DNA of 64,000 nucleotides from Rhodospirillales bacterium (GTDB lineage: Bacteria; Pseudomonadota; Alphaproteobacteria; Rhodospirillales; JASLLZ01). Below are positions 30,519 to 63,190 of this stretch, piece after piece. The notes beneath the pieces were generated by a model. That model worked only from the letters and a program-made list of their open reading frames with translations, had not been told where the DNA came from and did not search any database. The first letter of the stretch is position 1. Every line of letters begins with the position of its first letter. The stretch is taken from positions 1 to 64,000 of the forward strand of contig JASLLZ010000007.1 of NCBI GenBank assembly GCA_030746775.1, read 5' to 3'. The translations under genes and the position numbers were made by a program.

Positions 30519-31376
30519 ATGAACCAAGCGGGCGAGGGGATCGTCACCGAACGCGATATCGAGGACTTTAACAAGGACGGCGTCGTCTGCCTGCGCCGCG
30601 TTCTCGATGACGGTTGGGTGGAGCGCATGCGGGGCGCGGTTGATCGCGTCACCGAAAATCCGGGTCCCATGCGCGAAAGCTATTACCCCGACAGGCCCGG
30701 CGACTTCTTCAGCGAAAAATTCTTGTGGACCGTGGATGAGGACTTCCGCTCCTATGTCTTCGACGCCCCCGTCGCCGCGTCCGTCGGCCGGGTCATGGGG
30801 ACGCGCCGGCTCAATTTTTTCTACGACCATCTCCTGGTCAAGGAGCCGGGCACCGATTCGGCGACGGAATGGCACCAGGATTCGAACTTCTGGCCCTTCT
30901 CGGGCTCCCAGATCGCGACGCTTTGGGCACCCCTGGACCGGGCGACGCGCGACAACGGGGTGCTTGAATTCGTGCGCGGCTCCCACCTTTGGCATGATCG
31001 TCCCATGTCCCGCCCGACCATCTTCGGCGACCGCGACGGAAAACCCCAGGACGTGACCGACGAGGGGGCCGGATCGGTGGACGACACGCCCGAGCAGCCC
31101 GACATTCAGAATAACCGCGACCAGTTCGACATCGTGACCTGGGACCTCGATCCCGGCGACGCGCTGGTCTTTACCGGTTTGACGCTGCATTACGCCAGCG
31201 GCAATCCGACCGAGGGACGCCGCCGCGGTCTGGCGACCCGCTGGCTGGGCGACGATATCCGATTCATGCGCAAGAAAAAGATGCTCCAATTGATTCGCGA
31301 CCCTGGCCTCGAGGACGGCAACCGCGTCGATTGCGACCTTTTTCCCGTTGTCTGGCGCGCCGACGAAGCCGCCTAG
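30519..31376 (+). CDS. Phytanoyl-CoA-dioxygenase (PhyH)-family 2-oxoglutarate oxygenase, copy A
   Basis: A 285-residue Fe(II)/2OG-dependent oxygenase. The facial triad is His119, Asp121 (EWHQDSNFW) and His224 (LTLHYASGN); the 2OG-binding Arg lies in the RRRGLATRW stretch. It shares length and gap-free alignment of these residues with the paralogue at 58042. Family members hydroxylate acyl-CoA, amino acids or compatible solutes (EctD is one). The convergent flavoprotein gene begins 4 nt past its stop, the same partner type that is cotranscribed with copy B. Substrate unknown; a small amino acid or betaine is suggested by context. Confidence 0.87.
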   Translation: MNQAGEGIVTERDIEDFNKDGVVCLRRVLDDGWVERMRGAVDRVTENPGPMRESYYPDRPGDFFSEKFLWTVDEDFRSYVFDAPVAASVGRVMGTRRLNFFYDHLLVKEPGTDSATEWHQDSNFWPFSGSQIATLWAPLDRATRDNGVLEFVRGSHLWHDRPMSRPTIFGDRDGKPQDVTDEGAGSVDDTPEQPDIQNNRDQFDIVTWDLDPGDALVFTGLTLHYASGNPTEGRRRGLATRWLGDDIRFMRKKKMLQLIRDPGLEDGNRVDCDLFPVVWRADEAA

Positions 31377-31380
31377 AATC

Positions 31381-32526
31381 TCACGGCGCGGCGCGTTCGA
31401 CAGAAAACATTCCGATATCGAAGGAAGGCTGCCTTCCCGTCATCTGCTCGGCCACCAGCCGGGCACAGATCGGCGCCGTGGTCAGGCCGGCGTCGGTGGG
31501 AACGGCGGCATAAAAGCCCGGCACCCCCGGGATCTCGCCCAGAAAAGGCTTGCCATCGGACCTGATGTTGACGCCGGCCCAACTGCGCAGCAGCCGCACG
31601 TTCCTCAGGCCGGGCACCACTTGGCAAGCCAGGGCCACGTTGGCCCGCACATTCTCGGCCATGACCGTCAGTCCGTTGGTCACCGGGTCGATGCTGGCCG
31701 GCCAGCCGCCGCCGATGATCAGGCCGCCGTTGGCGACCTGCTTCAGGCTCAGGATTTTCTCGGCATGACAGACCAGGTGATCGACCACCGGCTCCGTCCG
31801 CTCGGTGACGCCCGATTGCACGCAGTTGGGTTCCACCGCGAGGGAGACCCCGACCTTGGCGGCGATCCGGGCGGACCACGGTCCCGCCGCGTTGACGACC
31901 CTGCGGCAGCGTACGCGGCCACCGGCAAGGAGGGCGGTAAAGCCGGTGCGGCCGCGCTCCAGTTCCAGCAACTGGCGGCCCTCGAAGAAGCGCGCGCCGT
32001 GCCGTTTGGCACCCCGGACCAGGCCGGCGATGGCCTTGAGCGGATTAAGCTTACCCTCGCCCGGCGCGTACTCGGCGCCGATGACGGCTTCCGAGAGGTA
32101 GGGCGCGAGCGTGCGGAGTTCGTTCCCCGACACCATGTGAACGTCCAGCCCCTGGTCCTGCTCCAGGGCCGCCTTATCGGCCAGGAACGCCATCTGATCG
32201 TCCGTTTCCGCCACCATCAGGCCGCCGACGACGCGCAATTCGATATCGCCGTCCAACTCCCGGCTCAGCTCCTGCCAGACGCCTGACGCCGCCGCCATGA
32301 GGGGCAGGGTATCGACGCGCGCCTGGCGCTCCCGGGCACTTCCTTCCCTGAAGATAAAGGGCATCAGTTGTTGATGCAGGCTGCCGGCGTTGCGGCCCGA
32401 GGCCCCGCGGCCTACCTCGCCCTGGTCGATCAGCACCACCTCGACCCCGTCGCGTGCCAGATAGTAGGCGGCGGAGCAGCCGGCGATGCCGCCGCCGACG
32501 ATCAGGACGTCGGTTTCGATGTCCAT
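31381..32526 (-). CDS. D-amino-acid-oxidase/glycine-oxidase-like FAD oxidoreductase, copy 1
   Basis: A 381-residue DAO-fold flavoenzyme. The N-terminal FAD motif is VLIVGGGIAGCSAAYYLAR, followed by the RGASGRNAGSLH isoalloxazine loop; AAGPWSARIA and the C-terminal GVPGFYAAVPTDAGLTTAP segments complete the FAD domain. It oxidises a secondary or D-configured amine to an imine, with electrons passing to O2 or a quinone. Paralogues lie at 53441 and 58896 and end similarly (…FSVERF). It starts 9 nt after the convergent-side TIM-barrel gene, so the minus-strand genes 31381-34811 may form one operon. Confidence 0.87.
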   Translation of the reverse strand: MDIETDVLIVGGGIAGCSAAYYLARDGVEVVLIDQGEVGRGASGRNAGSLHQQLMPFIFREGSARERQARVDTLPLMAAASGVWQELSRELDGDIELRVVGGLMVAETDDQMAFLADKAALEQDQGLDVHMVSGNELRTLAPYLSEAVIGAEYAPGEGKLNPLKAIAGLVRGAKRHGARFFEGRQLLELERGRTGFTALLAGGRVRCRRVVNAAGPWSARIAAKVGVSLAVEPNCVQSGVTERTEPVVDHLVCHAEKILSLKQVANGGLIIGGGWPASIDPVTNGLTVMAENVRANVALACQVVPGLRNVRLLRSWAGVNIRSDGKPFLGEIPGVPGFYAAVPTDAGLTTAPICARLVAEQMTGRQPSFDIGMFSVERAAP

Positions 32527-32535
32527 GAAATCAGT

Positions 32536-33366
32536 TCACCCGCCGGCGGCTTCCCATCCCCATTGGGAGAGTACGCGGCAGCTTTCCTTGAGGCCGCCGT
32601 CGGGATCGTCGAGGGTGACGACTTCCAACATGGAGTACCCCTGATAGCCGATATCGCGCAGGGTCTCGGCAACCGGCTCGAAATCCACGATGCCGCCCCC
32701 GATGGGCTGTTTCTCGTGGTGCTCGGGCCCCCTATCGGCAAGGTGGACCAGTCCCAGCCTGTCCTTGACCCGGCGCAAGGCCTGGCAAGGGTCCTCGCCG
32801 GCGCTGACCGCGTTGCAAACATCGAGATTGATGCCGACGCTATCCTCCCCCGCCTTGTCCAGCGCCATCATCAGGTGTTGCGAGGTGGGAAGAAACGTCG
32901 ACGGCACGTTTTCCAGCAACAACTTGACGCCGGCCGCCTTGGCATGGGGCGCCAGTTCGCGGATCGCCCCGACCAGCCACTCCAGCATCGGCTCGAAAGG
33001 CGGCGGGAAGAACGGGTGCATCTTGCCCGGCAGAAGCAATAGATTGGGAACCCCCCATTCGCCGGCCAGATCGATTATCCGGCGGTACATATCAAGGGTC
33101 AGCGACCGCATCTCGGGCAGCAGGCTGTTGAGGTTGTTGTCGTCGAAGGGAAAGCAGAAAGAGCGCATAGCGACGCCCCGATCGGCCAGGCGCCGGGGGA
33201 TGTCGCGGCGCTCACCGGCATCGAGCTCGGTGGGCCACAAATGGGGCGGGAAGATGACCACCTCGGCATCGTTGAAGCCGAGATCGGCCAGATGCATCAC
33301 GGCGTCGAAGGCGGAGTGGGTATAGATATAGGAAAACGTGCTGGCGCCGAGGGGCAATCGCGTCAT
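32536..33366 (-). CDS. Xylose-isomerase-like TIM-barrel sugar phosphate isomerase/epimerase
   Basis: A 276-residue AP-endonuclease-2-fold protein. It has PLGASTFSYIYTHSAFDAVMHL at the start (strand 1, abbreviated here), LLLENVPSTFLPT and NLDVCNAVSAGED as metal-ligand strands, and MLEVVTLDDPDGGL at the end. The metal ligands (Glu, Asp, His, Glu) appear as E of LLLENV, D of NLDVCN, H of VHLADRG and E of MLEVV. Substrates range from ketoses to hydroxypyruvate and inosose. ATG 33366 is used; the longer frame upstream lacks homology. It sits between the flavoprotein and a decarboxylase-like gene on the minus strand. Confidence 0.82.
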   Translation of the reverse strand: MTRLPLGASTFSYIYTHSAFDAVMHLADLGFNDAEVVIFPPHLWPTELDAGERRDIPRRLADRGVAMRSFCFPFDDNNLNSLLPEMRSLTLDMYRRIIDLAGEWGVPNLLLLPGKMHPFFPPPFEPMLEWLVGAIRELAPHAKAAGVKLLLENVPSTFLPTSQHLMMALDKAGEDSVGINLDVCNAVSAGEDPCQALRRVKDRLGLVHLADRGPEHHEKQPIGGGIVDFEPVAETLRDIGYQGYSMLEVVTLDDPDGGLKESCRVLSQWGWEAAGG

Positions 33367-33377
33367 TCGTTGTATTC

Positions 33378-34811
33378 CTATTCGCCTTTGCCGAAGGATT
33401 GGGCGAGAAGATGGGGCGGCACCCTGAACCGTCCCATCACGTCTTCGAGACGCTCGCGCTCGGTGATGATGTCGGCCTTGTCGCCCGAGACCAGCACCGT
33501 CGCCGGGCGGCACTGGGCGTTGAAGTTGGCGGATTGCGACTCGGCGTATGCTCCGGTATCCAACAGCGCGATCAGGTCGCCGCGTACCAGCGACGGTACC
33601 TGGCGCGCACGCGCCATGATGTCATGGGTACACAACGGCCCGACGATGTCGACGGTCTCGACGGCCGGGGCATCGGCCTTGTTGACGGGAACCATGTGAT
33701 AGTGATGGGGGATCGTGATCCACGGCACATGGTTGCCGCTCAGGTTCACGTTGACCCACTTGCTGTCCTTTTCGGGCCATTCCTTGACCGCGCCGACGCG
33801 GCCGATGGAGATACCGGCCATTCCCGAGATCGAGCGCCCGGGCTCGATCCGCAACTTGGGCAGGGGCAAGTCGTGACCCTTGCATTCGTCCTTCACCGCC
33901 TGGCCCACGGCGGCGCCGTATTCCTCGAAGGTGGAGACGCGCTCGTCGTCGATGCCGCCCCGGGGACCGGTCTTTTCCTTTCGCCCGAACGTCCAGCCGC
34001 CGCCGAGGTCGAGACACGACGGGGTCCATCCGACGTCGTCGCGAAGGCGCGCCGACCAGCGCACCATGTCGCGCGCCATCTCGGCAAAATCACAGGCCTG
34101 GTTGTCGAGCCGGCTCAAGTGGAAGTTAAGCTCGGTCAGGTGCAGGTGAGGCATGTCGTCGCGGATACGCTTCGCCAGCTCCGCCGTCTGGGCATAGGAC
34201 ATGCCCCATTTTTCGCCCCACACGATTTCCGCCATGCTGCCGTGGTGAACGCCCGTGCTGTGGCGGTCGATCAGGCCCGGCAGCTCCAGCTTGACGCGGA
34301 TTCCAACCTCGGCATCGACGCCGAGGCGGCGCGCCGTCTCGTCGACCATGTCCAGTTCGTCCATGGCATCCAAGTTGACGCAGACCCCGTTGGCGATGGC
34401 CAACTCGATCTCGGCGGCCTCCTTGTTGGACCCGTTGAGGGCCATCTTGGCGGGGTCCGATCCGGCAAGGAGTGCCACGTACATCTCGTTGTAGCCGAAG
34501 CAGTCGCCGCCCGCCCCTTCCTGGTTCATGATGTGACGCATGGCGAGGCCGTTGTTCGACTTGTTGGCGAACAGGATCTCGACGTTCGGGTACTCGGCCT
34601 GAAAGGCGTCGCGGAAGCGGCGATAGGCGTGACGGAACTGGTTCTCGCTGATGACGTGGAGCGGCGTTCCGAAGGTATCGGCCAGTTCCTCGCAATCGCG
34701 GCCCTCGACCCACAGATGGCCGTTGTCGCCGATGCCGATGAACTCGGAAAAGTGGCGCTTGAAGCGCGGAACGGGCAACGCCCGGGGCGCGGCCGACGCC
34801 AAGTCGTCCAT
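33378..34811 (-). CDS. Group IV PLP decarboxylase-like protein (DapDC/ornithine decarboxylase fold)
   Basis: A 477-residue alanine-racemase-fold III enzyme. The PLP lysine is K84 in LFANKSNNGLA (where DapDC has YAxKAN), glycine-rich LDLGGGWTFG binds the phosphate, and IEPGRSISG and CTHDIMAR replace the usual EPGR and CxxxD motifs. The substitution of CESxD by CTHD suggests a non-standard substrate. It may decarboxylate a D-configured alpha-amino dicarboxylate or act as a racemase/lyase. It starts 12 nt before the TIM-barrel gene and probably leads the minus-strand operon. A palindromic repeat lies beyond its start at 34904-34982. Confidence 0.78.
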   Translation of the reverse strand: MDDLASAAPRALPVPRFKRHFSEFIGIGDNGHLWVEGRDCEELADTFGTPLHVISENQFRHAYRRFRDAFQAEYPNVEILFANKSNNGLAMRHIMNQEGAGGDCFGYNEMYVALLAGSDPAKMALNGSNKEAAEIELAIANGVCVNLDAMDELDMVDETARRLGVDAEVGIRVKLELPGLIDRHSTGVHHGSMAEIVWGEKWGMSYAQTAELAKRIRDDMPHLHLTELNFHLSRLDNQACDFAEMARDMVRWSARLRDDVGWTPSCLDLGGGWTFGRKEKTGPRGGIDDERVSTFEEYGAAVGQAVKDECKGHDLPLPKLRIEPGRSISGMAGISIGRVGAVKEWPEKDSKWVNVNLSGNHVPWITIPHHYHMVPVNKADAPAVETVDIVGPLCTHDIMARARQVPSLVRGDLIALLDTGAYAESQSANFNAQCRPATVLVSGDKADIITERERLEDVMGRFRVPPHLLAQSFGKGE

Positions 34812-35807: not shown

Positions 35808-36752
35808 TCAGGCCCGTTTCGCCACCGGGCCCTCGAGGCAGCCGGCTTCGATCAGGATTTGGCGCAGGAGCTTCTGCTCGGCCGCCGTTAGCGGCGCGAT
35901 GTGCTCGCGCGGCTCGCCGCCGGGCAGGCCCAGCATCTTCATCGCCCCCTTGATGCCGGCCGGCGGCTTGCCGACGCTCCACATGAGGGCGTCGCTGACC
36001 ATGCCGTAACGGCAATGAGCATCCATGCGCTGGGCCGGCGTCATGGCGTGGACATCGAAGAACATGGCCCGGCACTCGGCGCCGAAGCACTCGGGCCCGG
36101 TTCCGACGAAACCGCCCGAACCCAGCAGCAGCGCCGGGATCAGCGTGTCCTTGTGGCCATAGAGGACGGGCGCGCGGTCGCCGACCTCGACGATCATGCG
36201 CTTGATGTGGTCGAAGTCGGTGGGCACATCCTTGATCACCTCGACCGGCACCACGTCGCAGATGGCGGCCATGATCTCGGGCGTGATGCTGAAATGCGAC
36301 AGGTGCGAAAGGTTATAGACCATCATCGGCAGGGGCACCGCCTTGTGGACGTCTTGGAAACGCCCGATAACCATCTCGGTCGTCGAATCGTAGATCTGGG
36401 GTTGGCCGAGCGCGATGCCGTAGGCCCCGGCCCGGGCGGCAATCTCGGCGCGGGCGATGCAGTTGCGCGTCGGCGTGCGGGTGACATGGACATAGAACGG
36501 GATGCGCCCGCCCACGGTCTTGGCCGCCACTTCGGTGACCAGGCCCAACTCGTCATCGGTAAGGGCGTAGCCTTCGCCGTTGCATCCGGCGATCAGCATA
36601 GTGTCGACCTTGACCACGTCGAGGTGGTAACGGAGTATCTCGGCGTAGGCGTCCAGCAGAAGCTCGCCCTTGGGGCTGAACGGCGTCACCGGCGCCGGGC
36701 AATGAATCTGGCCGCGAAAGCCGGACTGGGTATAGGTCTTGTCGATGGCCAT
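35808..36752 (-). CDS. DHDPS-fold lyase, type KTYT copy A
   Basis: A 314-residue dihydrodipicolinate-synthase/N-acetylneuraminate-lyase-fold enzyme. Schiff-base Lys174 (VIKDVP) and the triad Tyr146 (MMVYNLSH) are present, and the pyruvate-site loop reads GCNGEGY. The opening MAIDKTYTQSGFRGQIHCPA is shared with the copy at 60077, its obvious paralogue. Class members condense or cleave 2-keto acids or deaminate pyrroline-4-hydroxy-2-carboxylate. ATG 36752 has a GAGAGGAAAG SD. It is followed by the SDR with the ATC start; a separate divergent SDR (36882) is 129 nt away. Confidence 0.87.
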   Translation of the reverse strand: MAIDKTYTQSGFRGQIHCPAPVTPFSPKGELLLDAYAEILRYHLDVVKVDTMLIAGCNGEGYALTDDELGLVTEVAAKTVGGRIPFYVHVTRTPTRNCIARAEIAARAGAYGIALGQPQIYDSTTEMVIGRFQDVHKAVPLPMMVYNLSHLSHFSITPEIMAAICDVVPVEVIKDVPTDFDHIKRMIVEVGDRAPVLYGHKDTLIPALLLGSGGFVGTGPECFGAECRAMFFDVHAMTPAQRMDAHCRYGMVSDALMWSVGKPPAGIKGAMKMLGLPGGEPREHIAPLTAAEQKLLRQILIEAGCLEGPVAKRA

Positions 36753-39547: not shown

Positions 39548-40957
39548 TCAGATTGTCCCGTCGCGGGCCAGTTCGTCGGTCACCTTGGTAAGCGATTTTT
39601 CGGTGATCTCGACGATGCGGTCGACCTCGTCCGGGGTAATTACCAGGGGCGGCGCGTAGGCCAGGGCGTCGCCGCTCGGCATGGCGCGGACGATCATGCC
39701 GTTCTTGAGGCATTCTTCGGCGACCTTGGCGCTGACCCTGAGCGGCGCCTCGAACGCCTGTTTGGTTTTCTTGTCGGCAACGAACTCGATGGCGGCCAGC
39801 AGGCCGACACCCCTGACCTCGCCGACCAGGGGGTGGTCGGCGAAGACCTGGTTCATGCGTTTCAGCATGTAGCCGCCGGTGCGCTTGGCGTTACCGGCCA
39901 GGTCCTCGCCCTCGACGATATCGAGGTTGGCCATCGCCGCGGCGGCGCCGAGGGGATGGCCGGAATAGGTATAGCCGTGGGTGAAAATGCCGAACTGCTC
40001 CGAGCCCCGGCACAGGACCTCCCACACCCGCTCGCCGACGATGCTGCCCGACAACGGCACGTAACCGCTGGTCAGCCCCTTGGCGATGGTCATCAGGTCG
40101 GGCTTCATATCATAGGTCTGGGAACCGAAGTTGGAGCCCGTGCGCCCGAACCCGCAAACCACCTCGTCGGCGATCAGCAAAACGTCGTGCTTGTCGAGGA
40201 CCTTCTGGATTTCCCCCCAGTATCCCTCGGGCGGCGGCATGATGCCGCCCGTTCCCATTGCCGGTTCGCCGATGAAGGCGGCGACGGTTTCGGGGCCTTC
40301 TTCCTCTATCAGGGCGTCAAGATCGGCGGCGCACTTCCTGGCGAAGTCACGCTCGCTCATGCCCTCCTCGGCGTAGCGGTAATGGTGCGGCGTCGTCGTG
40401 TGGCGCACCATGGGAAGCGGCAGGTCGAAGGCTTGGTGGAACGACGGAATGCCGGTCATGCTGCCCGACAAGATGGTCAGCCCGTGATAGGCGAAGCGCC
40501 GGGCGATGATCTTCTTCTTGTTGGGCCGGCCGAGGACGTTGTTGTAGTACCAGACGATCTTGACCTGGGTCTCGTTGGCGTCCGATCCCGACATGCCGTA
40601 GTAGATCTTGCTCATGTTCTCGGGCGCCATGCGCAGGACACGGTCCGAGAGCCGGATGAGGGGTTCGTTGGAGGCACCCCGGTAGGTATGGAAGTAGGGC
40701 AGCTTCTTGGCCTGTTCGTAGATCGCCTCGGCGATCTCGGTGCGCCCGTAGCCGACGTTGACGCAATAAAGACCGGCGAAGGCGTCGATCAAATCCCGGC
40801 CCTGGCTGTCAACGATGTGGATGCCGTGGCCGGTCTCCATGATCTGGGGATCGCCGAGCGCGCCCGAGGCATAGGCCTTCAAATCGGTGTTGGGATGGAC
40901 GATGCTTTGGCGGTCCATCTCTTCCAGCGTCAGGTTGTGGGCGGTATCCAGGGTCAC
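39548..40957 (-). CDS. Class III (omega) aminotransferase
   Basis: A 469-residue fold-type I class III aminotransferase. The PLP lysine is in TIAKGLTSGYVPL, preceded by the DEVVCGFGRTG motif (Asp on pyridine N); MSGSDANETQVK is the phosphate-binding loop and THGYTYSGHPLG the family hallmark. Beta-alanine:pyruvate or other omega-amine specificities are typical. GTG 40957 is used with AAAAGGAAAATGCC upstream; the longer frame to 41089 lies inside the neighbouring dioxygenase. It is convergent with the enolase-superfamily gene (6 nt apart) and may share a transcript with the dioxygenase 26 nt upstream. Confidence 0.87.
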   Translation of the reverse strand: MTLDTAHNLTLEEMDRQSIVHPNTDLKAYASGALGDPQIMETGHGIHIVDSQGRDLIDAFAGLYCVNVGYGRTEIAEAIYEQAKKLPYFHTYRGASNEPLIRLSDRVLRMAPENMSKIYYGMSGSDANETQVKIVWYYNNVLGRPNKKKIIARRFAYHGLTILSGSMTGIPSFHQAFDLPLPMVRHTTTPHHYRYAEEGMSERDFARKCAADLDALIEEEGPETVAAFIGEPAMGTGGIMPPPEGYWGEIQKVLDKHDVLLIADEVVCGFGRTGSNFGSQTYDMKPDLMTIAKGLTSGYVPLSGSIVGERVWEVLCRGSEQFGIFTHGYTYSGHPLGAAAAMANLDIVEGEDLAGNAKRTGGYMLKRMNQVFADHPLVGEVRGVGLLAAIEFVADKKTKQAFEAPLRVSAKVAEECLKNGMIVRAMPSGDALAYAPPLVITPDEVDRIVEITEKSLTKVTDELARDGTI

Positions 40958-40983
40958 GGCATTTTCCTTTTCGACATTGGGGT

Positions 40984-41841
40984 TCAGACGGGCACCCGGT
41001 CGTCCATGATGGTGGTGCGGTGCATGTGACGCCGGTAACGGTTTTGATCGAAGGGCGTGGCCGCGTGGTAGGTACAGCGGTTGTCCCACAGCAATGCGTC
41101 GCCCGGCCGCCAGCGGTGAGTGTAGACGAAACGGGGCTGGATGGCGAACTCCCTCAGTTCGCGCAATAAGGCGTCGCCCTCGTCCTCGGGCAGGCCCTCG
41201 ACGGTGCCGGCCGTGACATCACCGATGAAAAGCGCTTTGCGCCCGGTTTCGGGGTGGGTGCGCACGAGGGGATGGAACACGTCCGCGTAGGCCGCCTTCT
41301 GGGCGTCGGTCAGGGGCGGCTTGTCGGGATAGTTGATGGGCCAGGACTTGACGCGGCTGACCCGGTTCGTCCGCCCGTCGACACGGCGCTTGGTATCCTT
41401 GGCCAAGGCCTCGTAGGCGGCGTACATGTTGGCGAACAGCGTGTCGCCGACGCCGGGCGCCGACGGCACCTCGATGGCGTGCAGAAAGCCCGCCATGGCG
41501 GGAATGCGCTCGAAATAAAGATCGACGTGCCAGAACTGGCCGCCGCCCGGATTGCCCACGAATTCGCCATTCTTCTTGAGGGTGGACAGCACCAAAATCT
41601 CGGGGTGGCCGTCGAGGGTCTTCTCGGCCTTGAGATCGGTGTTCAACCGCCCGAAGCGCCGGCTGATGGCAAGGTGCTGCTCGACGCTCATGCCATGGAG
41701 GTCGCGGAACACCAAAACCAGGGCTTCGAGCCATGCCGCGCGGAGGGTCTCAAACGTCTTATCGTCCAGGGGCCGGGAAAGATCGAGGCCGATGACCTCT
41801 GCTCCCAGGGCCGCCGACAGAGGCTTTATCTCGATGCCCAT
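40984..41841 (-). CDS. TauD/TfdA-family 2-oxoglutarate dioxygenase
   Basis: A 285-residue Fe(II)/2OG enzyme. The triad is His105-X-Asp107 (FWHVDLYF) and the His in CTYHAATPFD; R-rich RRHMHRTTI binds 2OG. Members cleave sulfonates, phenoxyacetates or hydroxylate carnitine/lysine derivatives. It is flanked by the aminotransferase and RidA genes on the same strand, and is unlike the PhyH-type oxygenases at 30519 and 58042. The minus-strand run 39548-43191 (aminotransferase, dioxygenase, RidA, DHDPS-fold lyase) is closely spaced (26, 3 and 36 nt) and looks like one operon. Confidence 0.87.
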   Translation of the reverse strand: MGIEIKPLSAALGAEVIGLDLSRPLDDKTFETLRAAWLEALVLVFRDLHGMSVEQHLAISRRFGRLNTDLKAEKTLDGHPEILVLSTLKKNGEFVGNPGGGQFWHVDLYFERIPAMAGFLHAIEVPSAPGVGDTLFANMYAAYEALAKDTKRRVDGRTNRVSRVKSWPINYPDKPPLTDAQKAAYADVFHPLVRTHPETGRKALFIGDVTAGTVEGLPEDEGDALLRELREFAIQPRFVYTHRWRPGDALLWDNRCTYHAATPFDQNRYRRHMHRTTIMDDRVPV

Positions 41842-41844
41842 CCC

Positions 41845-42231
41845 CTAGGTCGCCGCGGCGACGGCCTCGATCTCGACCAACATATCAGGACGCGCAAGGC
41901 CCTTGACGATAAGCAGGGTCGAGGCCGGCTTGACGCCGCTGAGGACCCGGTCGCGGACTTCGCGGAAGGTCAAGATATCTTCCTCGCAGGTCAGGAAAAT
42001 ACCGATCTTGACCAGGTTCTCGTATCCCATGCCGGCCGATTCCAAGATACACAGGATTTTCTTCCATATGTCTTCCATCTGAGCCTCTACGCCCTCGACA
42101 ACGGTGCCGTCGGGACGAACGGCGATCTGGCCCGAGATGTAGAGCCAGCGGGCGCCCGGGGCGACCTCTATGGCCTGGGAGATGAGGTTGCTCGGGGGCG
42201 GCAGATCCATGGGATTGTGGTATGTCAGCAT
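41845..42231 (-). CDS. RidA/YjgF-family imine deaminase
   Basis: A 128-residue RidA-family protein. Hydrophobic ISGQIAVRPDGTVV, LVKIGIFL and the C-terminal ARPDMLVEIEAVA with the carboxylate-binding Arg114 are present. RidA enzymes hydrolyse enamine/imine intermediates, for instance those released by amino-acid oxidases, to keto acids plus ammonia. This fits well in a cluster rich in D-amino-acid-oxidase-like flavoproteins, though the closest of those are on separate transcripts. It is 3 nt from the dioxygenase and 36 nt from the lyase upstream. Confidence 0.87.
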   Translation of the reverse strand: MLTYHNPMDLPPPSNLISQAIEVAPGARWLYISGQIAVRPDGTVVEGVEAQMEDIWKKILCILESAGMGYENLVKIGIFLTCEEDILTFREVRDRVLSGVKPASTLLIVKGLARPDMLVEIEAVAAAT

Positions 42232-52445: not shown

Positions 52446-53261
52446 ATGTTGAAGAAAATTTTCACGACCGGCCTTGTTGCGATGGCCGGAATCCTCTTGT
52501 TGGCAACGGCCGGCGAGGCCCGCACCCTTGATGAAATCATCAAGGCCGGCGTGATTCGGATCGGCGTCCAGCCCAATCTGCCGGGCAACAGCGTTCTGAA
52601 GCCGGACGGCTCTTGGGAAGGCATGGACATCGATATGGGAGGGGCTATCGCCAAGTCGCTTGGCGTCAAGGCGGAGTTCGTGCCCTCCAAGTCGCCGCAG
52701 CGCGTTCCCATCCTGGTTTCCGATCAGGCGGACATCATGCTGGGTGGTCTGACCCGCAACTCGCGGCGTGCCAAGCTGATCGACTATTCCCTGCCCACCT
52801 TCACCGAATCCCAGGTCGTTTTGACGACGTCGAAGTGGGCGAGCCTGAAGAGCTGGAAGGACTTCAACCGCTCGGACATCACCCTGGCCAACGTGCGCGG
52901 CACCGTTCCCGCCCAATGGACCCGTAAGAACGCGCCCAAGGCAAAGGAAATCCTGTTTGACAGCGGCGCCGACGTGGTCCGGGCCATCGGCCAGGGGCGT
53001 GCCGACGGCACCATCGCCATCATCGATAATTGGCTCAAGTTCACCAAGAACTACGCCAACGTGAAGTGGCACGTGTTGCCCGATACCATCTATCTCGGCT
53101 ACTGGGGTATCGGCATGCAGAAGGGCAACAACGAACTGCGCCGTTGGCTCAACATCTGGCTTTACGACTTCCAGAGCAAGAACAAGCACAATGCGCTGTG
53201 GGAGAAGTGGTACGGATCGCCGCCGGCCTTCCCGGTCGTCCCGACGTATTACTTTCCGTAA
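52446..53261 (+). CDS. Polar amino acid ABC transporter substrate-binding protein
   Basis: A 271-residue SBP-bac-3-type periplasmic protein. The signal peptide ends about residue 25 (ATAGEA/RT). The start IIKAGVIRIGVQPNLPGN, GMDIDMGGAIAKSLG and YFP C-terminus are typical of amino-acid binding proteins. The SD is AAAGGGAGG. A perfect terminator follows within 15 nt, so it is a single-gene transcript. The permeases probably using it (56435-57849) are 3 kb away on the other strand, and no ATPase is in the window. Ligand: probably an amino acid or betaine, unproven. Confidence 0.88.
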   Translation: MLKKIFTTGLVAMAGILLLATAGEARTLDEIIKAGVIRIGVQPNLPGNSVLKPDGSWEGMDIDMGGAIAKSLGVKAEFVPSKSPQRVPILVSDQADIMLGGLTRNSRRAKLIDYSLPTFTESQVVLTTSKWASLKSWKDFNRSDITLANVRGTVPAQWTRKNAPKAKEILFDSGADVVRAIGQGRADGTIAIIDNWLKFTKNYANVKWHVLPDTIYLGYWGIGMQKGNNELRRWLNIWLYDFQSKNKHNALWEKWYGSPPAFPVVPTYYFP

Positions 53262-53440: not shown

Positions 53441-54607
53441 CTAGAAGCGCTCGACCGAAAAGGCTTCAAGGTCGAACGTGGTTGATTTGCCGGCAATCCG
53501 TTCGGCCAGCAATCGGCCGCAAATCGGTGCCCCGGTAAAGCCCGGGTTGGGCGGCACGGCGAGATAGAACCCGGGTACGCCCGGAACTTCGCCCAGGATG
53601 GCATCGCCGTCGGGGGTAAGGGTCAGCATGCCAGCCCAGGTGCGTAAAAGGCGCAGCGGCCCCAGGCCGGGCACGACGCTCCTGGCGACGCCAAGGTTTC
53701 CCTTGATGCTTTTCTTGATCACGTCGGGCCGGCCCGTCGCGGTGTCGAAGGCCGCCGGCCAACCGCCGCCGATCACCACATTGCCGCGCGCCGCCTGCTT
53801 CATCGACAACATGCGGTCGCTATGCTGCACCAAGTGCTTGATCAGGGGCGGCGCGGCCTCGGTCACATTCATGTGGCGGGCATGGGATTCGATGGGCAGG
53901 CGAACCCCGACCATGGCGGCCACGGCCCCGGCCCCGGCCCCCGCCGCGTCGATTACCCTGTGGCAGCGAATGTCGCCGCGACTTGTCCTCGCCTCGAAAC
54001 CGGCGCCGTCGGTCTCGAGGGCCAGGAGTTCGGTGCCCTGCAAGAAGCGGGCTCCCGCCCGCTCGGCGCCCCTGGCCACGGCGCCGGTCGCCAGGATCGG
54101 ATTGACCTTGCCCTCCTTGGCGCAAAACGCGGCGCCGATGACGCTGTCGGAGACATAGGGCGCGATGGTCCCGAGATCGGAGCCGGTTACCACGTCAACG
54201 TTCAAGCCGTGGCTCCTTTCTTCCTCCGCCTTTTCTTCGAGCATGCGCAATTGCCCCTCGGTTTCGGCCACCATGAGGCCGCCGTCGAGGACCAGTTCGA
54301 TATCGCGGTCCACCTCGCCGGCCAGTTCCCGCCACGTCTCGACCGCCGCCTTGACCAGCGGCAGAAGCCTGTTTCGCCCCGCCACCCAAAGCGGATCACG
54401 GCTTTTGAAAAATCGCGAGACGGTCATGAGATGAAGGCTTCCGGCATTGACGCCCGAGGCCTGCCCGTTGATCCCGTCGCGGTCGATGACCGCCACGTCG
54501 ACGCCCCAGCGGGCCAGGTAATAGGCGGCGCAACAGCCGACCACGCCGCCGCCCACGACCAGGACGTCGGTCTCCGTCAATCGATCGCCTTCATCGCGTT
54601 CGGTCAC
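53441..54607 (-). CDS. D-amino-acid-oxidase-like FAD oxidoreductase, copy 2
   Basis: A 388-residue DAO-fold flavoenzyme with VLVVGGGVVGCCAAYYLAR, NGQASGVNAGSLH, and the C-terminal LLRTWAGMLTLTPDGDAILG and FSVERF. It is a paralogue of 31381 and 58896. The early RFFKSRDP and ERSHGLNVDV segments differ from copy 1, so substrates may differ. It diverges from the DHDPS-fold gene at 54689 by 81 nt, which should hold both promoters. The next gene towards the left ends at the palindromic repeat. Confidence 0.87.
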   Translation of the reverse strand: MTERDEGDRLTETDVLVVGGGVVGCCAAYYLARWGVDVAVIDRDGINGQASGVNAGSLHLMTVSRFFKSRDPLWVAGRNRLLPLVKAAVETWRELAGEVDRDIELVLDGGLMVAETEGQLRMLEEKAEEERSHGLNVDVVTGSDLGTIAPYVSDSVIGAAFCAKEGKVNPILATGAVARGAERAGARFLQGTELLALETDGAGFEARTSRGDIRCHRVIDAAGAGAGAVAAMVGVRLPIESHARHMNVTEAAPPLIKHLVQHSDRMLSMKQAARGNVVIGGGWPAAFDTATGRPDVIKKSIKGNLGVARSVVPGLGPLRLLRTWAGMLTLTPDGDAILGEVPGVPGFYLAVPPNPGFTGAPICGRLLAERIAGKSTTFDLEAFSVERF

Positions 54608-54688: not shown

Positions 54689-55615
54689 ATGGACAAATCA
54701 ACGGTGGACTGGCACGGCGTCATGCCGGCAATCGTGACGCCCTTCGACCGTCAAGGCAACATCGACGAAGCGGCATTCCGCCGCCATATCGACATCAACG
54801 TCGGCTACGGCGTGACCGGTGTCGTCATAACCGGCTGCGCGGGCGAGGCCTGGGCGCTTTCGATCGACGAGCGCAAGCATCTCTTCACCCTGGCCATGGA
54901 CGCCGCCCAGGGCAGGATCAAGGTCATTGCCGCGACGGGGGCAATCCGGGCCCAAGACGTGATCGACATGAACCGCCATGCCAAGGAAATCGGCTGCGAC
55001 GGCGCCATGGTCCTGGCCCCGTTCTTCCCCAAATTGCATTCGGCGGACGATCTGGTGGCCCATTACCAGATGATCTCCGACGCCGTAGACCTGCCGATCA
55101 TGCTCTACAACGTTCCCGGCTATAACGTGAACGAGATGACGCCCGAGATCATCTCGCGCCTGGCCGATATCGACGCCGTCGTCGCCATCAAGGAAAGCAC
55201 CACCGATTGGGAGAAGTTCTTCCGCGGCTACCACCTTGTCGGCGACCGCATCCATTATCTTACCGGTCAGCTCAGCCTCTATGGCCTGGCCGCCGTCGAG
55301 CACGGCGTGCGCGGCACGGTGACTGGCGCCACCAATTGCTGGGGCGCGGAATCGGTTGAGTTCTTCAACGCCTGCCTCGAAGGCGACAAGGAAAAGGCGC
55401 TCAGGCTGCAAAAGAAAGCCGTCGATCTGTGGGACCTGGCCATGGCCAACCACCGCAACCTCTATCCGGCGATCAAGGCCATGATGAACCTCCAGAGCCT
55501 GCCGGGAGGCCATGCGCGGCCGCCGCTGAGGTCCCTTGGCGAGCCCGATTTGACAGAGTTGCGCGACGGCTTGATCGGCCTCGGATTTACCGTCGTGGCC
55601 CAGGCGGCGGAATAA
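54689..55615 (+). CDS. DHDPS-fold lyase, type DKxxVDWHG copy B
   Basis: A 308-residue enzyme with Lys168 (AIKESTTD), Tyr140 (MLYNVPG) and pyruvate loop GCAGEAW. It is the paralogue of 42268, starting MDKSTVDWHGVMPAIV. GGAGGAAACAGAC precedes ATG 54689. The SDR gene starts 26 nt after its stop on the same strand, so lyase plus SDR form one unit, as also seen for SDRs near copy A of the KTYT type. Likely acts on a keto acid made by the flavoprotein/transaminase steps. Confidence 0.87.
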   Translation: MDKSTVDWHGVMPAIVTPFDRQGNIDEAAFRRHIDINVGYGVTGVVITGCAGEAWALSIDERKHLFTLAMDAAQGRIKVIAATGAIRAQDVIDMNRHAKEIGCDGAMVLAPFFPKLHSADDLVAHYQMISDAVDLPIMLYNVPGYNVNEMTPEIISRLADIDAVVAIKESTTDWEKFFRGYHLVGDRIHYLTGQLSLYGLAAVEHGVRGTVTGATNCWGAESVEFFNACLEGDKEKALRLQKKAVDLWDLAMANHRNLYPAIKAMMNLQSLPGGHARPPLRSLGEPDLTELRDGLIGLGFTVVAQAAE

Positions 55616-56434: not shown

Positions 56435-57175
56435 TCAGCCCTGGCGCAGATTGTAGGGTGTCGGCGCGAGATCGTCGGGACGCGTATCGATCGCCCGCGA
56501 CGCCTTGATGCGGGCCTCCATCCACCATCCGAAGCGGGTCAGGGGATAGGACAGCAGGAAATAGAGAATAAGGATGCTTCCGAATGACAGGATGGCGGAA
56601 AAACTGAAATTATTGAAGTACTTGCCAACCGCCGTCAGTTCCATCACGCCGACTTGGGAGGCCAGCGACGTGTCCTTGATGAAGACGACGAAAAAGGCAA
56701 AGGCGGGTGGCAGGATGACCTTCCAGGCCTGGGGCAGGACGACGTGTCTCAGGATCTGAATGCGGTTGAAATTCATGGCCGTGGCGGTATCCCACTGGTT
56801 GGCGTGGACGGATTCGAGCCCGGCGCGGATGATCTCGCCGATAAAAGCGGTGGAAATGATGACAATCGAGATACAGGCGATAGTGAACAGCGAATAACTC
56901 TGACCCAGTCCCTTGGAGACGAAGAGGACGAGGAACAGGAGAACCAGGAAGGGAACGCGGCGGAAGAACTCGACATAGGAAATCATGAACAGGCGGAGGG
57001 GAACGAACAGCCAGCCCGGCGTCGTGCGCAGATAGACCAGGACAAAGCCGAACAGAAAGCCGAGGCCGCAGCCGATGACGGTCATCATCAACGTCCGCGT
57101 CATCGCCCAGAACAGATAGCCCGCATTCTCCAGGGTCAAAAACCGGGGCAATTGTTCCAAGAACAGATCGAACAT
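56435..57175 (-). CDS. Amino acid ABC transporter permease, subunit 2
   Basis: A 246-residue His/Glu/Gln/Arg-type permease with 5-6 TM helices. The EAA-like loop for ATPase contact is visible as ANQWDTATAMNFNRIQIL followed by LPQAWKVILPP. Its ATG (57175) overlaps the previous gene's TGA (TGATG), so the two permeases are translationally coupled. The tail ILSFGSILILYFLLSYPLTRFG is hydrophobic to the end. It matches the SBP at 52446 in kind. No ATPase is near, so a shared or remote ATPase would be needed. Confidence 0.87.
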   Translation of the reverse strand: MFDLFLEQLPRFLTLENAGYLFWAMTRTLMMTVIGCGLGFLFGFVLVYLRTTPGWLFVPLRLFMISYVEFFRRVPFLVLLFLVLFVSKGLGQSYSLFTIACISIVIISTAFIGEIIRAGLESVHANQWDTATAMNFNRIQILRHVVLPQAWKVILPPAFAFFVVFIKDTSLASQVGVMELTAVGKYFNNFSFSAILSFGSILILYFLLSYPLTRFGWWMEARIKASRAIDTRPDDLAPTPYNLRQG

Positions 57176-57849
57176 CAGAACACCTTCGTCTTGACCCGGA
57201 AAACCCGGCGCCCGATATAGGCCAGAAGCGCGCTGGCAAGGATGGTGATCGCGACGTAGATAAAGGCGACGATGATGTAGACTTCGATGGAGCGGAAGGT
57301 GTCGGATGCCACGTTGAAGGCCCGCCCGGTCAGCTCTTCGACACCCAGGATAGAGGCCGCCGCCGTGCCCAGGATCATCCAGATGTACCAATTTGACAGC
57401 GGCGCGAAGAGCACCTTGGCGATATGCGGCACGATGACGTAGCGTACCGATTGCATCAGGCTGAAACCAAGGGACTCGGCGGCTTCCATTTCCATCTTGC
57501 GGACCGAGGCGAAGCCGCCGCGCATGATCTCGGTGATATAGGCGCCGGAATTGAGGGCGATGTTGAGCAGCATGGTCTTGTACGGCGACAGCACGATGCC
57601 GAACTCGGGCAACCCGAAAAAGATGAAAAATGCCGTCACCAGGCCCGGCGTGTTGGTGAAGAAGACGACGTAGACGTTGACCAGGTTGACAAGCCACTTG
57701 GGTCCGTAAGACTTGGCCACGGCGCCGAAAAGACCGATGGTGCAGCCGCACCAGAATCCGAGGAAGGAAAGATGAAGGGTGATCCAGGCGCCACCCATCA
57801 AATAGGGAAATTCCCGGAACGCCTCGCCCCATTGGAAGACGTATTCCAT
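57175..57849 (-). CDS. Amino acid ABC transporter permease, subunit 1
   Basis: A 224-residue permease of the HisM/GlnP type. The ATPase-contact loop reads EMEAAESLGFSLMQSVRYVIVPH. It begins the two-gene permease operon on the minus strand, coupled to the second permease by TGATG. Helices are predictable at residues about 20-45, 55-80, 88-110, 140-165 and 185-215. A perfect 7-bp dyad (57915-57930) lies about 65 bp upstream and could be an operator. The inner membrane location is evident from composition. Confidence 0.87.
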   Translation of the reverse strand: MEYVFQWGEAFREFPYLMGGAWITLHLSFLGFWCGCTIGLFGAVAKSYGPKWLVNLVNVYVVFFTNTPGLVTAFFIFFGLPEFGIVLSPYKTMLLNIALNSGAYITEIMRGGFASVRKMEMEAAESLGFSLMQSVRYVIVPHIAKVLFAPLSNWYIWMILGTAAASILGVEELTGRAFNVASDTFRSIEVYIIVAFIYVAITILASALLAYIGRRVFRVKTKVF

Positions 57850-58041: not shown

Positions 58042-58899
58042 ATGACCCGATCAGCCCCCGGCGACGTCAATCAAGGAGACGTCGAGGCATTCGAGCGCGA
58101 CGGCGCCGTCTGCCTGCGCGGCGTCTTCGACCGCGGCTGGATCGAGCGTATGTGCGGCGCCGTCGATCGCCTCAAGTCCGAGCCCGGTCCGATGCGCCAG
58201 AAGTTCCGGCCCGACGATCCTGGCGAGTTCTTCAGCGACAAGTTCATGTGGACCCACGACCCCGATTTTCGCGACTACGTCATGCGCTCCCCCGCCGCGG
58301 CACTCGCCGCCCGCCTGATGGGCTCGGCCAAGATCAACGTCTTCTTCGACCAACTATTGGTCAAGGAACCCCGCACCCTGGCCCCCAGCCCCTGGCATCA
58401 GGACCTCAATTTCTGGCCCTTCACGGGGCGCCAGGTGTGCACTGTTTGGATGCCCCTCGACCTTGCCGACCGCGAAAGCGGTGTTCTCGAATTCGTGCGC
58501 GGCTCGCACCTGTGGAAGGAGCGGCCGTTTTCCCGTGAGCTGGTCTTCGCCAACGACGACAAGCAGCCCCAGGACGTGGCGGGGGACAACATCCCCGAAA
58601 CCGACGATCCCCAAACCCTGCCCGATATCGAAGCCGACCGGGACGCCTACGACATCATCTCGTGGGACCTTGAACCGGGGGATGCCCTGGCCTTCACCGC
58701 GCTCACGCTGCACGCGGCGCCGGGTAATGCCTCGAACCGCCGGCGCCGCGCCCTTGCCACGCGCTGGACGGGTGACGACATCCGCTATGCGCTAAAGCGC
58801 AAGCTGGCGACCCTGCTGCGCGACCCCGGCTTGGTGCCTGGCGACACCATGGATTGCGACCTTTTTCCCGTTGTCTGGCGGGCGGCCCAAGACACTTGA
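58042..58899 (+). CDS. Phytanoyl-CoA-dioxygenase (PhyH)-family 2-oxoglutarate oxygenase, copy B
   Basis: A 285-residue Fe(II)/2OG oxygenase with the triad at His119, Asp121 and His224 (PWHQDLNFW, LTLHAAPGN), at exactly the same numbers as in copy A at 30519. The shared length and motif numbering argue for duplication with little insertion or deletion. GGAGGAAAGGCGG precedes ATG 58042. Its TGA overlaps the TTG of the flavoprotein gene (TTGA, 58896-58899). It probably hydroxylates a substrate that the flavoenzyme then oxidises, or removes an N-methyl group; which is not shown by the sequence. Confidence 0.87.
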   Translation: MTRSAPGDVNQGDVEAFERDGAVCLRGVFDRGWIERMCGAVDRLKSEPGPMRQKFRPDDPGEFFSDKFMWTHDPDFRDYVMRSPAAALAARLMGSAKINVFFDQLLVKEPRTLAPSPWHQDLNFWPFTGRQVCTVWMPLDLADRESGVLEFVRGSHLWKERPFSRELVFANDDKQPQDVAGDNIPETDDPQTLPDIEADRDAYDIISWDLEPGDALAFTALTLHAAPGNASNRRRRALATRWTGDDIRYALKRKLATLLRDPGLVPGDTMDCDLFPVVWRAAQDT

Positions 58900-60080
58900 G
58901 CGCCCCTTCGTCGACAGGCAATCACGGATCGGGCGCGGTTTTGGACGACACCGACGTACTGGTGGTGGGGGGCGGCATCGTCGGCTGTTCCGCCGCTTAC
59001 TATCTGGCCCGCTTTGGCATCGACGTGGCGCTCGTCGAACGCGACGACCTCAATACCGGCGCCTCGGGCGCCAACGCGGGAAGCCTGCACGCTCAATTGA
59101 CGTCGCGCTATTTCACCGAGGGACCGCCGGCACGCATCGAAGCGGCGGCGCGCGCCCTCATCCCCCTGTCGCGCCAGGCGGTGGATACCTGGGGGGAACT
59201 GGCCCGCGAGCTGGACCGCGACATCGAGTTCAAGACGAACGGCGGCCTCATGGCGGCCGAGAGTCCGGCCGAAATGGAAGTCTTGCGCCGCAAGGCTACC
59301 CTTGAACAAGCCGCCGGGCTCGATGTTCATGTCCTGGCGCGCTCGGAGGCGAGGTCCTTCGCGCCCTACCTTGCCGAGACGGTACTCGGCATCGAAGTCT
59401 GTCCCATCGAGGGCAAGATCAACCCGCTCCTGGCGACACCGGCCCTGGCCCGGGGCGCGGCGCGGGCCGGCGCCCGTATCCACCGCCACGCCGGACTCCT
59501 CGCTCTCGAACGGGAAAAGGGGACGTTCGTGGCAAAGACGCCCCGCGGCGCCGTCCGTTGCCGCCGTGTCGTCGATGCCGCCGGCGTCGGGGCGGCGAAG
59601 GTCGCCGCCATGGTCGGTCTGCATCTCCCCGGCGAGGCGCGGCTTCAGCACATGAACGTCACGGCGCGAACGGAACCGTTTCTCCCCCACCTTGTCCAGC
59701 ACGCCGGCAAACGGCTGACCATGAAGCAGAGCGCCACCGGCACGGTTATCATCGGCGGCGGGCTGCCGGCCCGGCGCGATCCGGCGACCGGCGAGATCGG
59801 AGTGCTGCGCGACAGCATCGCGATCAATCTTGGGACGGCCCGGAACCTGGTTCCCGCCGTAGCGCGCCTCCAACTGCTGCGCACCTGGGGCGGCGAGAGC
59901 CTGATGACCGACGGCAACCCGGTCCTGGGCGCGGTTCCTTCGGTGGCGGGCTTTCATCTGGCAATTCCGGCCAACTCGGGCATCACCAGCGGACCCCTTT
60001 GCGCCCGGCTGGTGGCGGAATCCCTGTCGGGCCGGCGCCCGTCCCTCGATCTCGACGCGTTTTCTATCGAACGGTTCTAG
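58896..60080 (+). CDS. D-amino-acid-oxidase-like FAD oxidoreductase, copy 3
   Basis: A 394-residue DAO-fold flavoenzyme from TTG 58896. The FAD motif is VLVVGGGIVGCSAAYYLAR, then TGASGANAGSLH and DAAGVGAAKVAAMVG, ending FSIERF. The TTG overlaps the PhyH stop (TTGA); a second TTG at 58941 would shorten it by 15 residues. It is the third paralogue with 31381 and 53441. Its TAG and the stop of the convergent DHDPS-fold gene use the same CTAG (60077-60080). Pairing with PhyH copy B mirrors PhyH copy A with flavoprotein copy 1. Confidence 0.86.
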   Translation: MSAPSSTGNHGSGAVLDDTDVLVVGGGIVGCSAAYYLARFGIDVALVERDDLNTGASGANAGSLHAQLTSRYFTEGPPARIEAAARALIPLSRQAVDTWGELARELDRDIEFKTNGGLMAAESPAEMEVLRRKATLEQAAGLDVHVLARSEARSFAPYLAETVLGIEVCPIEGKINPLLATPALARGAARAGARIHRHAGLLALEREKGTFVAKTPRGAVRCRRVVDAAGVGAAKVAAMVGLHLPGEARLQHMNVTARTEPFLPHLVQHAGKRLTMKQSATGTVIIGGGLPARRDPATGEIGVLRDSIAINLGTARNLVPAVARLQLLRTWGGESLMTDGNPVLGAVPSVAGFHLAIPANSGITSGPLCARLVAESLSGRRPSLDLDAFSIERF

Positions 60081-61015
60081 CCTGTCCGGGCGACGCGTTC
60101 CTCGAGGATACCGACGCGGATCAGGATGGCGCGAAGTTCGTCTTCCTCGGCCGGCGTCAGGGCCGAAACGTGATCGCGGGGCACGCCCGCCGGCAGGCCA
60201 ATCATGTTAAGCGCCGCCTTCAATCCCGCCGGCGGCTTGCCCACGGTGTGCAAAAGCGCCTGGTTCACCAAGCCGTAGCGGTAGTGAAGATCGAACCGCT
60301 CGGCCGGCGTCATGTCATGGATGTCCAGGAACTTCCGGCAATCGGCGCCGAACATTTCGGGCCCGGTGCCGACGAAACCGCCGGAACCCAGTAAAAGGGC
60401 CGGTATCATGGTCAGGCGCTGACCGTAGAGAAAGGGGAAGCGCCCGCCCATCTCGGCCAACATGGTGGTGATGTGGTCCATGTCCGGCGGCGCGTCCTTG
60501 ACCACGTCCACCGGCGCCACGTCGCAGATCGAGCGCAGCACGCCGGCGTCGATGTTGAAGTGCGAGATAAGCGGCAGGTTGTAGACCATCATGCGCAGCG
60601 GCACGGCCTTGGCCACCTGGGCGTAGCGCTCGACGATCTTGTCGGCCGAGGCGTCGTAGATGGGAGGCTGGCACAGGCCGATGCCGGGCGCCCCGGCGGC
60701 GGCCGCGATCTCGGCCCGTTCGATGCAGCGCCGGTTGGATGTCCGCGTCACGTTGACGTAAAACGGAACGCGCCCGGCGATTGTCTTGGCCGCCGTTTCC
60801 GTCACCTGGCGCAGTTCGTCGTCGCTCAGGGCGTAGCCCTCGCCGTTGTCGCCGGCGATCAGCATGGTGTCGGCCCGTACCACGTCGAGATAGTAGCGCA
60901 GAACCTCGCCATAGGCGTCCGTCATCAACTCGCCCTTGGGGCTGAACGGCGTGACCGGTGCCGGGCAGTGAATCTGCCCGCGAAACGGGGAATGGGTATA
61001 GGTCTTGTCCATCAT
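60077..61015 (-). CDS. DHDPS-fold lyase, type KTYT copy B
   Basis: A 312-residue enzyme with Lys173 (VVKDAPP), Tyr145 (MMVYNLPL) and pyruvate loop GDNGEGY. It opens MMDKTYTHSPFRGQIHCPA, the paralogue of 35808. GGGAGAGATTGCGCC precedes the ATG at 61015 (ATG 61012 next). The stop shares CTAG with the convergent flavoprotein gene. The Asp in GDNGE (Cys in copy A) is the clearest active-site difference. Its promoter region is the 101-bp gap to the divergent sulfite-oxidase-family gene. Confidence 0.87.
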   Translation of the reverse strand: MMDKTYTHSPFRGQIHCPAPVTPFSPKGELMTDAYGEVLRYYLDVVRADTMLIAGDNGEGYALSDDELRQVTETAAKTIAGRVPFYVNVTRTSNRRCIERAEIAAAAGAPGIGLCQPPIYDASADKIVERYAQVAKAVPLRMMVYNLPLISHFNIDAGVLRSICDVAPVDVVKDAPPDMDHITTMLAEMGGRFPFLYGQRLTMIPALLLGSGGFVGTGPEMFGADCRKFLDIHDMTPAERFDLHYRYGLVNQALLHTVGKPPAGLKAALNMIGLPAGVPRDHVSALTPAEEDELRAILIRVGILEERVARTG

Positions 61016-62386: not shown

Positions 62387-63190
62387 GTGCACATCGTCGT
62401 CTGCATAAAGCAGACCCCCGATCCGGAGATGGCGCCGAGCCAGTTCCGCGTCGACGAGGAAGCCGGGACGGCGATCCCCTGGCCCGGCTCGTCCCTGGTT
62501 CCGAGCCCCTTCGACGAACAGGCGGTGGAGGCCGCGCTCAGGATCCGCGATACTCTGGGCGAGGCCAGGATCACCCTCGTTTGTTTGGGCCCCGAACAGG
62601 CGCGCGCGACCCTCAAGGCGGGCCTGGCACTGGGCGCCGACCAAGGCGTGCTGCTCTCTGACGCGGCCTTCGAAGGCGGCGACGGCGCCACCACCGCCGT
62701 GGTGCTGGCACGCGCGATTGCCAAGTTGGCGCCCTTCGACCTGATCCTCGCCGGACGCCAGGCGGCGGACACCGACGCCGGGGTCGTCGGCTGCGGCGTG
62801 GCCGAACTGCTTGACCTCGCCGCCGTCACTTTGGCCAAGGACGTGGCGGTCGAAGACGGCGGGGCGCGCGTCGTCCGCGCCCTGGCCGACGGCACCGAGA
62901 CCGTCGAGGCGCCCCTGCCATTGGTCGTCACCGTCTCCCACGAATTGGGTGCGCCGCGCCACGCCAGCCTGCGCGAGACCATGCGGGCGGCGAAAAAGCC
63001 GATCGAGGCGTGGAGCGCCTCCGATCTCGACCTGCAACCGGCGGAGGTCGGCCGGGCCGGCGCCAGGTGTGTGGTCGAGCGTCTGTTTGTGCCCGCGAGC
63101 GACGTCACCTGCGAGTTCGTCGAAGGCGCCACCGCCCGGGACCAGGCCGCCGCCCTTGTCGAGCGGTTGCGCGCGGCCGAGGTCCTATGA
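62387..63190 (+). CDS. etfB: Electron transfer flavoprotein beta subunit
   Basis: A 267-residue EtfB with VVCIKQTPDPE at the start, LAGRQAADTDAG (AMP/FAD region) and the PLPLVVTVSHELGAPRHASL recognition segment. It forms an FAD/AMP heterodimer with EtfA (start 63330) and carries electrons from flavin dehydrogenases to the quinone pool. GTG 62387 is the only good start, with a poor SD (GGGCGCCGGGGCG). Unusually, 139 nt lie before etfA. The D-amino-acid-oxidase-like flavoproteins upstream are candidate electron donors; this is inference. Confidence 0.85.
   Translation: MHIVVCIKQTPDPEMAPSQFRVDEEAGTAIPWPGSSLVPSPFDEQAVEAALRIRDTLGEARITLVCLGPEQARATLKAGLALGADQGVLLSDAAFEGGDGATTAVVLARAIAKLAPFDLILAGRQAADTDAGVVGCGVAELLDLAAVTLAKDVAVEDGGARVVRALADGTETVEAPLPLVVTVSHELGAPRHASLRETMRAAKKPIEAWSASDLDLQPAEVGRAGARCVVERLFVPASDVTCEFVEGATARDQAAALVERLRAAEVL

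Follow-up and report, generated by a model that had tools for sequence, protein, structure and literature searches.

Flavin oxidase and DHDPS-family lyase genes as recurrent neighbours in a Rhodospirillales catabolic island with MysH-like oxygenases

In the 64,000-nt stretch of Rhodospirillales DNA analysed here (the window), flavoenzymes of the DAO family lie beside PhyH oxygenases, and the recurrent gene partner of the flavoenzyme is a DHDPS-family lyase, not PhyH. It appears reasonably probable that the PhyH-DAO contacts reflect how this genus has placed catabolic enzymes of two types within one large island for the breakdown of imported amino-acid-like compounds, in which the DAO product would pass to a DHDPS-type lyase. 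This corrects a coupling that had been inferred from a four-base overlap, and points to a recurring link between a flavin oxidase and a DHDPS-family lyase.

Gene content and enzyme families of the island

The features discussed are listed in Table 1. The gene order is common to two species of the genus, that of the window and its sister species G001, with proteins 83-92% identical. Further along the island, SDR and CoA-related enzymes are encoded. A third oxygenase of the island, a TauD-family 2-oxoglutarate oxygenase (40984-41841) and hence of another family than PhyH, has genes for a class-III aminotransferase and a RidA-like protein next to it (39548-42210; RidA read from sequence).

Table 1. 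Features of the window and their family assignments
Feature	Position	Strand	Description
PhyH A	30519-31376	+	Second MysH-like oxygenase; PhyH (PF05721) E 2e-34; 57% identical to PhyH B
DAO A	31381-32526	-	Clade of DAO B, other lineage; last gene of minus-strand operon
Xylose-isomerase-like TIM barrel (AP_endonuc_2)	32536-33357	-	PF01261 E 1e-38; 9 nt from DAO A
LysA-like PLP decarboxylase	33378-34811	-	TIGR01048 253.7 bits, below the diaminopimelate decarboxylase cut-off of 297.9
DHDPS3	35808-36752	-	DHDPS2 paralogue, judged from its translation and from its orthologue in G001, a 65% match to DHDPS2
Solute-binding protein, polar amino-acid ABC transporter	52446-53261	+	PF00497 E 2e-24
DAO C	53441-54607	-	Third flavoenzyme, DAO A/B clade; PF01266 E 2e-59; divergent from DHDPS1
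DHDPS1	54689-55615	+	DHDPS-family lyase adjoining DAO C; PF00701 E 2e-62
Two ABC permease genes	56435-57175, 57175-57849	-	From ORF calls, identified by reading the sequence; divergent from PhyH B; conserved in G001
PhyH B	58042-58899	+	285 aa; MysH-like Fe(II)/2-oxoglutarate oxygenase; Pfam PF05721 E 3e-32; PDB MysH E 5e-50
TTGA	58896-58899	+	TTG overlapping the PhyH B stop; as DAO B start probably unused
DAO B	58941-60080 (alternative start TTG58896)	+	FAD-dependent glycine-oxidase/SoxB-like oxidoreductase; PF01266 E 1e-58
DHDPS2	60077-61015	-	DHDPS-family lyase; PF00701 E 3e-30; overlaps the end of the convergent DAO B by 4 nt
ETF subunits beta, alpha	62387-63190; 63330 to window edge	+	Read from translation; 80-83% in G001

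By their sequences, PhyH A and PhyH B are assigned to the subfamily of 2-oxoglutarate oxygenases that includes MysH. A profile search of solved proteins matched MysH over the full length (E 7e-72; next best SnoK, 1e-27), and the predicted metal ligands of PhyH B (H119-x-D121...H224) as well as R235 are invariant across 14 relatives. The two proteins are placed as ancient paralogues in the tree. MysH, which forms palythine in the synthesis of mycosporine-like amino acids, is predicted to hydroxylate the glycine substituent of a mycosporine and thereby release the substituent from the nitrogen (PMC10510106). PhyH A and B resemble it in subfamily over the full length and in the motifs for metal and 2-oxoglutarate ligands, whereas an insertion follows their SHLW motif and their genes lie alongside a transporter in a catabolic island. 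None of the mycosporine synthesis genes (mysA-D) was recognised among the window genes read.

The flavoenzymes are assigned, likewise by sequence, to a glycine-oxidase/sarcosine-oxidase-beta-like clade (PF01266 E 1e-58 to 3e-63 for the DAO family in the window, Pfam). The solved proteins nearest to this clade are glycine oxidase, the SoxB-like 1y56 of Pyrococcus, and sarcosine oxidase beta. By score, the closest named families are the beta subunit of heterotetrameric sarcosine oxidase (soxB, 109 bits against a cut-off of 529) and the glycine oxidase ThiO (112 against 251), and the DAO proteins fall below these and all other named NCBIfam cut-offs. The sequence-only reading had named a flavin amine oxidase as the partner of PhyH B; a DAO-like flavoprotein ending at 60080 is indeed present, while its type is given here as DAO/glycine-oxidase (PF01266). 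DAO C did not figure in that reading. Some members of the clade are fused to a SoxA-like alpha part with Fer2_4, Pyr_redox_2, and BFD domains, but an alpha-subunit gene is absent next to DAO A, B, and C. Such fusions occur at L014:108-3119 (G012:C2), L130, and L129, where the operons also contain DHDPS, hydantoinase-like, and transporter genes.

Contacts between the PhyH and DAO genes

PhyH B and DAO B had been read as translationally coupled through the TTGA that they share. In these letters a TTG does run into the PhyH stop codon; however, the use of TTG58896 as a real start is unsupported. Both in-frame TTGs, 58896 and 58941, are conserved in G001. Over the 15 codons from the first to the second, the two species differ by 2, 7, and 7 changes at codon positions 1, 2, and 3 (8 non-synonymous and 4 synonymous codons), compared with 2, 0, and 14 over the 45 codons after TTG58941, and second-position changes do not exceed 4 in any 15-codon bin of the DAO B gene. 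The N-terminus read from TTG58941, MDDTDVLVVGGG, matches MDIETDVLIVGGG of DAO A. Since the 42 nt between the two TTGs evolve unlike coding sequence, a 41-nt spacer is likelier than an overlap start, and TTG58941 is the likely start of DAO B. Stops of the form [AGT]TGA are found in 14 of the 57 window genes, i.e., NTGA at a stop is common; together with the disfavoured start, this makes the overlap weak evidence for coupling. Translational coupling through TTGA is thus unlikely, as the 15 codons from TTG58896 do not change in the manner of a constrained coding frame. Scans between PhyH B and DAO B for terminators and promoters gave nothing above chance. In this genus, the two genes are probably transcribed together, with 41 nt between them.

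With regard to the other pair, PhyH A and DAO A are convergent with 4 nt between their stops, just as had been described. This spacing is not conserved, being 21 nt in G001. DAO A belongs to its own minus-strand operon with the TIM-barrel protein and the LysA-like decarboxylase, with which it is contiguous, and pair A is therefore the end of the DAO A operon meeting another gene. The gene set of this operon recurs in other families, and relatives of the TIM-barrel protein (42-53%) lie near DAO genes in G012, G020, and G040, while relatives of the LysA-like protein (57-71%) occur on DAO-bearing loci.

A duplicated PhyH-DAO cassette was considered and rejected: trees put PhyH A and B, and also DAO A and B, in different lineages. 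The claim of two independent pairings is borne out in this sense, A and B not being one copied cassette. A third PhyH-DAO contact in the genome, also convergent (G000:C22:30282-32669), involves a distinct, larger, GlpD-like flavoprotein of 519 aa.

Three of the four PhyH genes of the genome touch some DAO-family gene, compared with an expectation of about 0.2 for four PhyH genes (estimate). This is above chance, fits a closer PhyH-DAO link, and counts against the genus-specific placement favoured here. It also counts against the quite unlikely reading that the juxtapositions are accidental, the abundance of DAO genes (61 in a genome of 3.6 Mb) and extensive islands for amine catabolism having put PhyH and DAO together without shared function. 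Such an accident would be in keeping with the number of full-length DAO genes, with the restriction of the adjacency to one genus, and with the unrelated GlpD-like partner in the C22 pair; however, the order is kept in two species at the protein identities given above, and PhyH B and DAO B are codirectional, with no terminator-like site between them on the plus strand.

From the two pairings, sequential action of the enzymes on one substrate had been proposed, with the frequency of the adjacency across genomes as a check. When carried out, this check came out against a general PhyH-DAO couple. A DAO gene was found within 3 genes of PhyH for 0 of 69 PhyH genes in named public genomes and 0 of 25 in the same order (about 94 elsewhere), counts in which a few genes are present twice across sets and many contigs are short; reciprocally, a PhyH gene was found within 3 genes for 0 of 31 DAO-clade genes. 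Strict neighbours occur in the two genomes of this genus only, and recurrence of the neighbourhood in unrelated genomes was not observed. Looser proximity, at 4-9 genes, was detected in L127, L014, L046, and L040, of which L127 and L014 belong to two other families. Among 317 genomes of the order, the PhyH subfamily is present in 66 and the DAO clade in 10, and nine of these 10 carry both. No PhyH-DAO couple was found described in the literature searched.

These results bear on a dedicated couple, in which PhyH would hydroxylate an amine-bearing substrate and DAO would oxidise the product, with translational linkage in pair B and repetition in pair A. We regard it as possible but doubtful. The lack of neighbouring pairs outside the genus, the disfavoured TTGA start, the location of DAO A in another operon that is convergent with PhyH A, and the occurrence of PhyH A orthologues in two families without a nearby DAO all speak against it, even though the genus brings together PhyH and DAO genes from two distinct lineages each, three of four PhyH genes touch DAO, the two groups co-occur at the genome level (9/10 versus 66/317), and cluster-level proximity is seen in G088 and G012. 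Sequential action on one substrate could hold in view of the three contacts, but the adjacency counts across genomes go against it. A couple of a 2-oxoglutarate hydroxylase and a flavoenzyme does exist in CsiD-LhgO, glutarate hydroxylase and L-2-hydroxyglutarate oxidase (PMC5974017, PMC6265302), and offers a precedent in kind by analogy, in that a DAO-fold flavoenzyme likewise adjoins a 2-oxoglutarate oxygenase. However, the PhyH proteins lie outside the CsiD family (Pfam matches PhyH only), and the LhgO score is 48.6 bits against a cut-off of 299.

Flavoenzymes and DHDPS-family lyases as gene partners

A DHDPS-family gene lies within 3 genes of 9 of the 31 DAO-clade genes. Within the genome, 8 of the 29 DHDPS genes listed are located within 400 nt of a DAO gene, compared with 1.3 expected and a maximum of 6 in 400 random placements, although the expansion of DAO to 61 copies makes such within-genome neighbour statistics noisy. 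The arrangement is also found in a gammaproteobacterium, where DAO is followed by DHDPS at a distance of about 100 nt, and in G040:C166, where relatives of DAO B and DHDPS2 are neighbours (54% each). In the tree, DAO B is the sister of this G040:C166 gene, and DAO A clusters with a gene that has DHDPS and TIM-barrel genes next to it, with modest support for both groupings (94/72 for DAO B and 95/60 for DAO A).

In hydroxyproline breakdown, an oxidase of the DAAO superfamily is followed by a deaminase of the DHDPS superfamily (PMC4113996). The island resembles trans-4-hydroxyproline breakdown (oxidase, then Pyr4H2C deaminase) in its repeated adjacency of DAO-family and DHDPS-family genes and, in a related family, in proline-racemase-family genes neighbouring the PhyH pair. 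It differs in the extra oxygenases and in the LysA-like decarboxylase and TIM barrel of the DAO A operon. A proline-racemase-family epimerase is absent from the window, the two copies of the genome being on C171 and C133, and genes of this family adjoin PhyH in G040 only. The DHDPS proteins do not reach the cut-off of any named NCBIfam member, so a deaminase role is proposed for them by analogy.

Both families are strongly expanded. In the genome of 3.6 Mb, full-length DAO genes number 61 and DHDPS-family genes 33; its relatives G001, G012, G020, and G040 have 23-43 DHDPS genes in 1.9-3.1 Mb, and G088 has 8. This parallel expansion suggests a specialist in the breakdown of amino compounds.

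Putative route and the wider setting of the oxygenases

The favoured account builds on the family identities, the gene order with its conservation, and the DAO-DHDPS recurrence; from these we infer the reactions, the substrate, the electron acceptor, and the co-transcription of PhyH B and DAO B. Briefly, the neighbouring ABC transporter would import an amino compound, and PhyH A and B would probably hydroxylate the carbon next to its nitrogen, or a ring position. For the DAO enzymes, the probable reaction is oxidation of an amino acid or imino acid to its imine, with electrons possibly passed to the ETF encoded from 62387 as a candidate acceptor. The product would most likely be taken by a Schiff-base lyase/deaminase of the DHDPS family (DHDPS1, 2, or 3), by analogy with hydroxyproline breakdown, while PhyH A would simply abut the end of the DAO A operon.

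A variant in which PhyH B and DAO B act as a couple of hydroxylase and flavoenzyme appears unlikely. In this scheme, an imported N-substituted amino acid would first be hydroxylated at its alpha carbon or N-dealkylated, and flavin oxidation and DHDPS-type cleavage would follow. If true, it would represent an undescribed catabolic route, with MysH-like chemistry employed for breakdown instead of sunscreen synthesis.

The history of the oxygenases extends beyond the genus. Orthologues of PhyH A occur in two other families, in one of which the gene has a tandem partner placed loosely near A and B in the tree; no DAO lies near these orthologues, and a solute-binding protein gene adjoins them. Relatives of the window solute-binding protein (47-51%) are found beside PhyH A/B relatives in L011 and L012 (two other families). 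In L011 (G040:C133, 9130-17585), tandem PhyH genes have as neighbours two proline-racemase-family genes (PF05544) and a gene for a solute-binding protein, which suggests a cyclic amino-acid substrate.

Among bacteria, the MysH-like subfamily is widely distributed, and it shows no evident link with sunscreen synthesis. A Pfam tally of immediate PhyH neighbours in the named loci (121 proteins) revealed no dominant partner and placed DAO outside the top 25, the commonest domains being the glyoxalase fold and ABM (6 each). In L128 (G088:C163) and L144 (G104:C93), a further MysH-like PhyH gene shares its operon with M20-type hydrolases and a phosphonate-type ABC transporter (the latter read from sequence).
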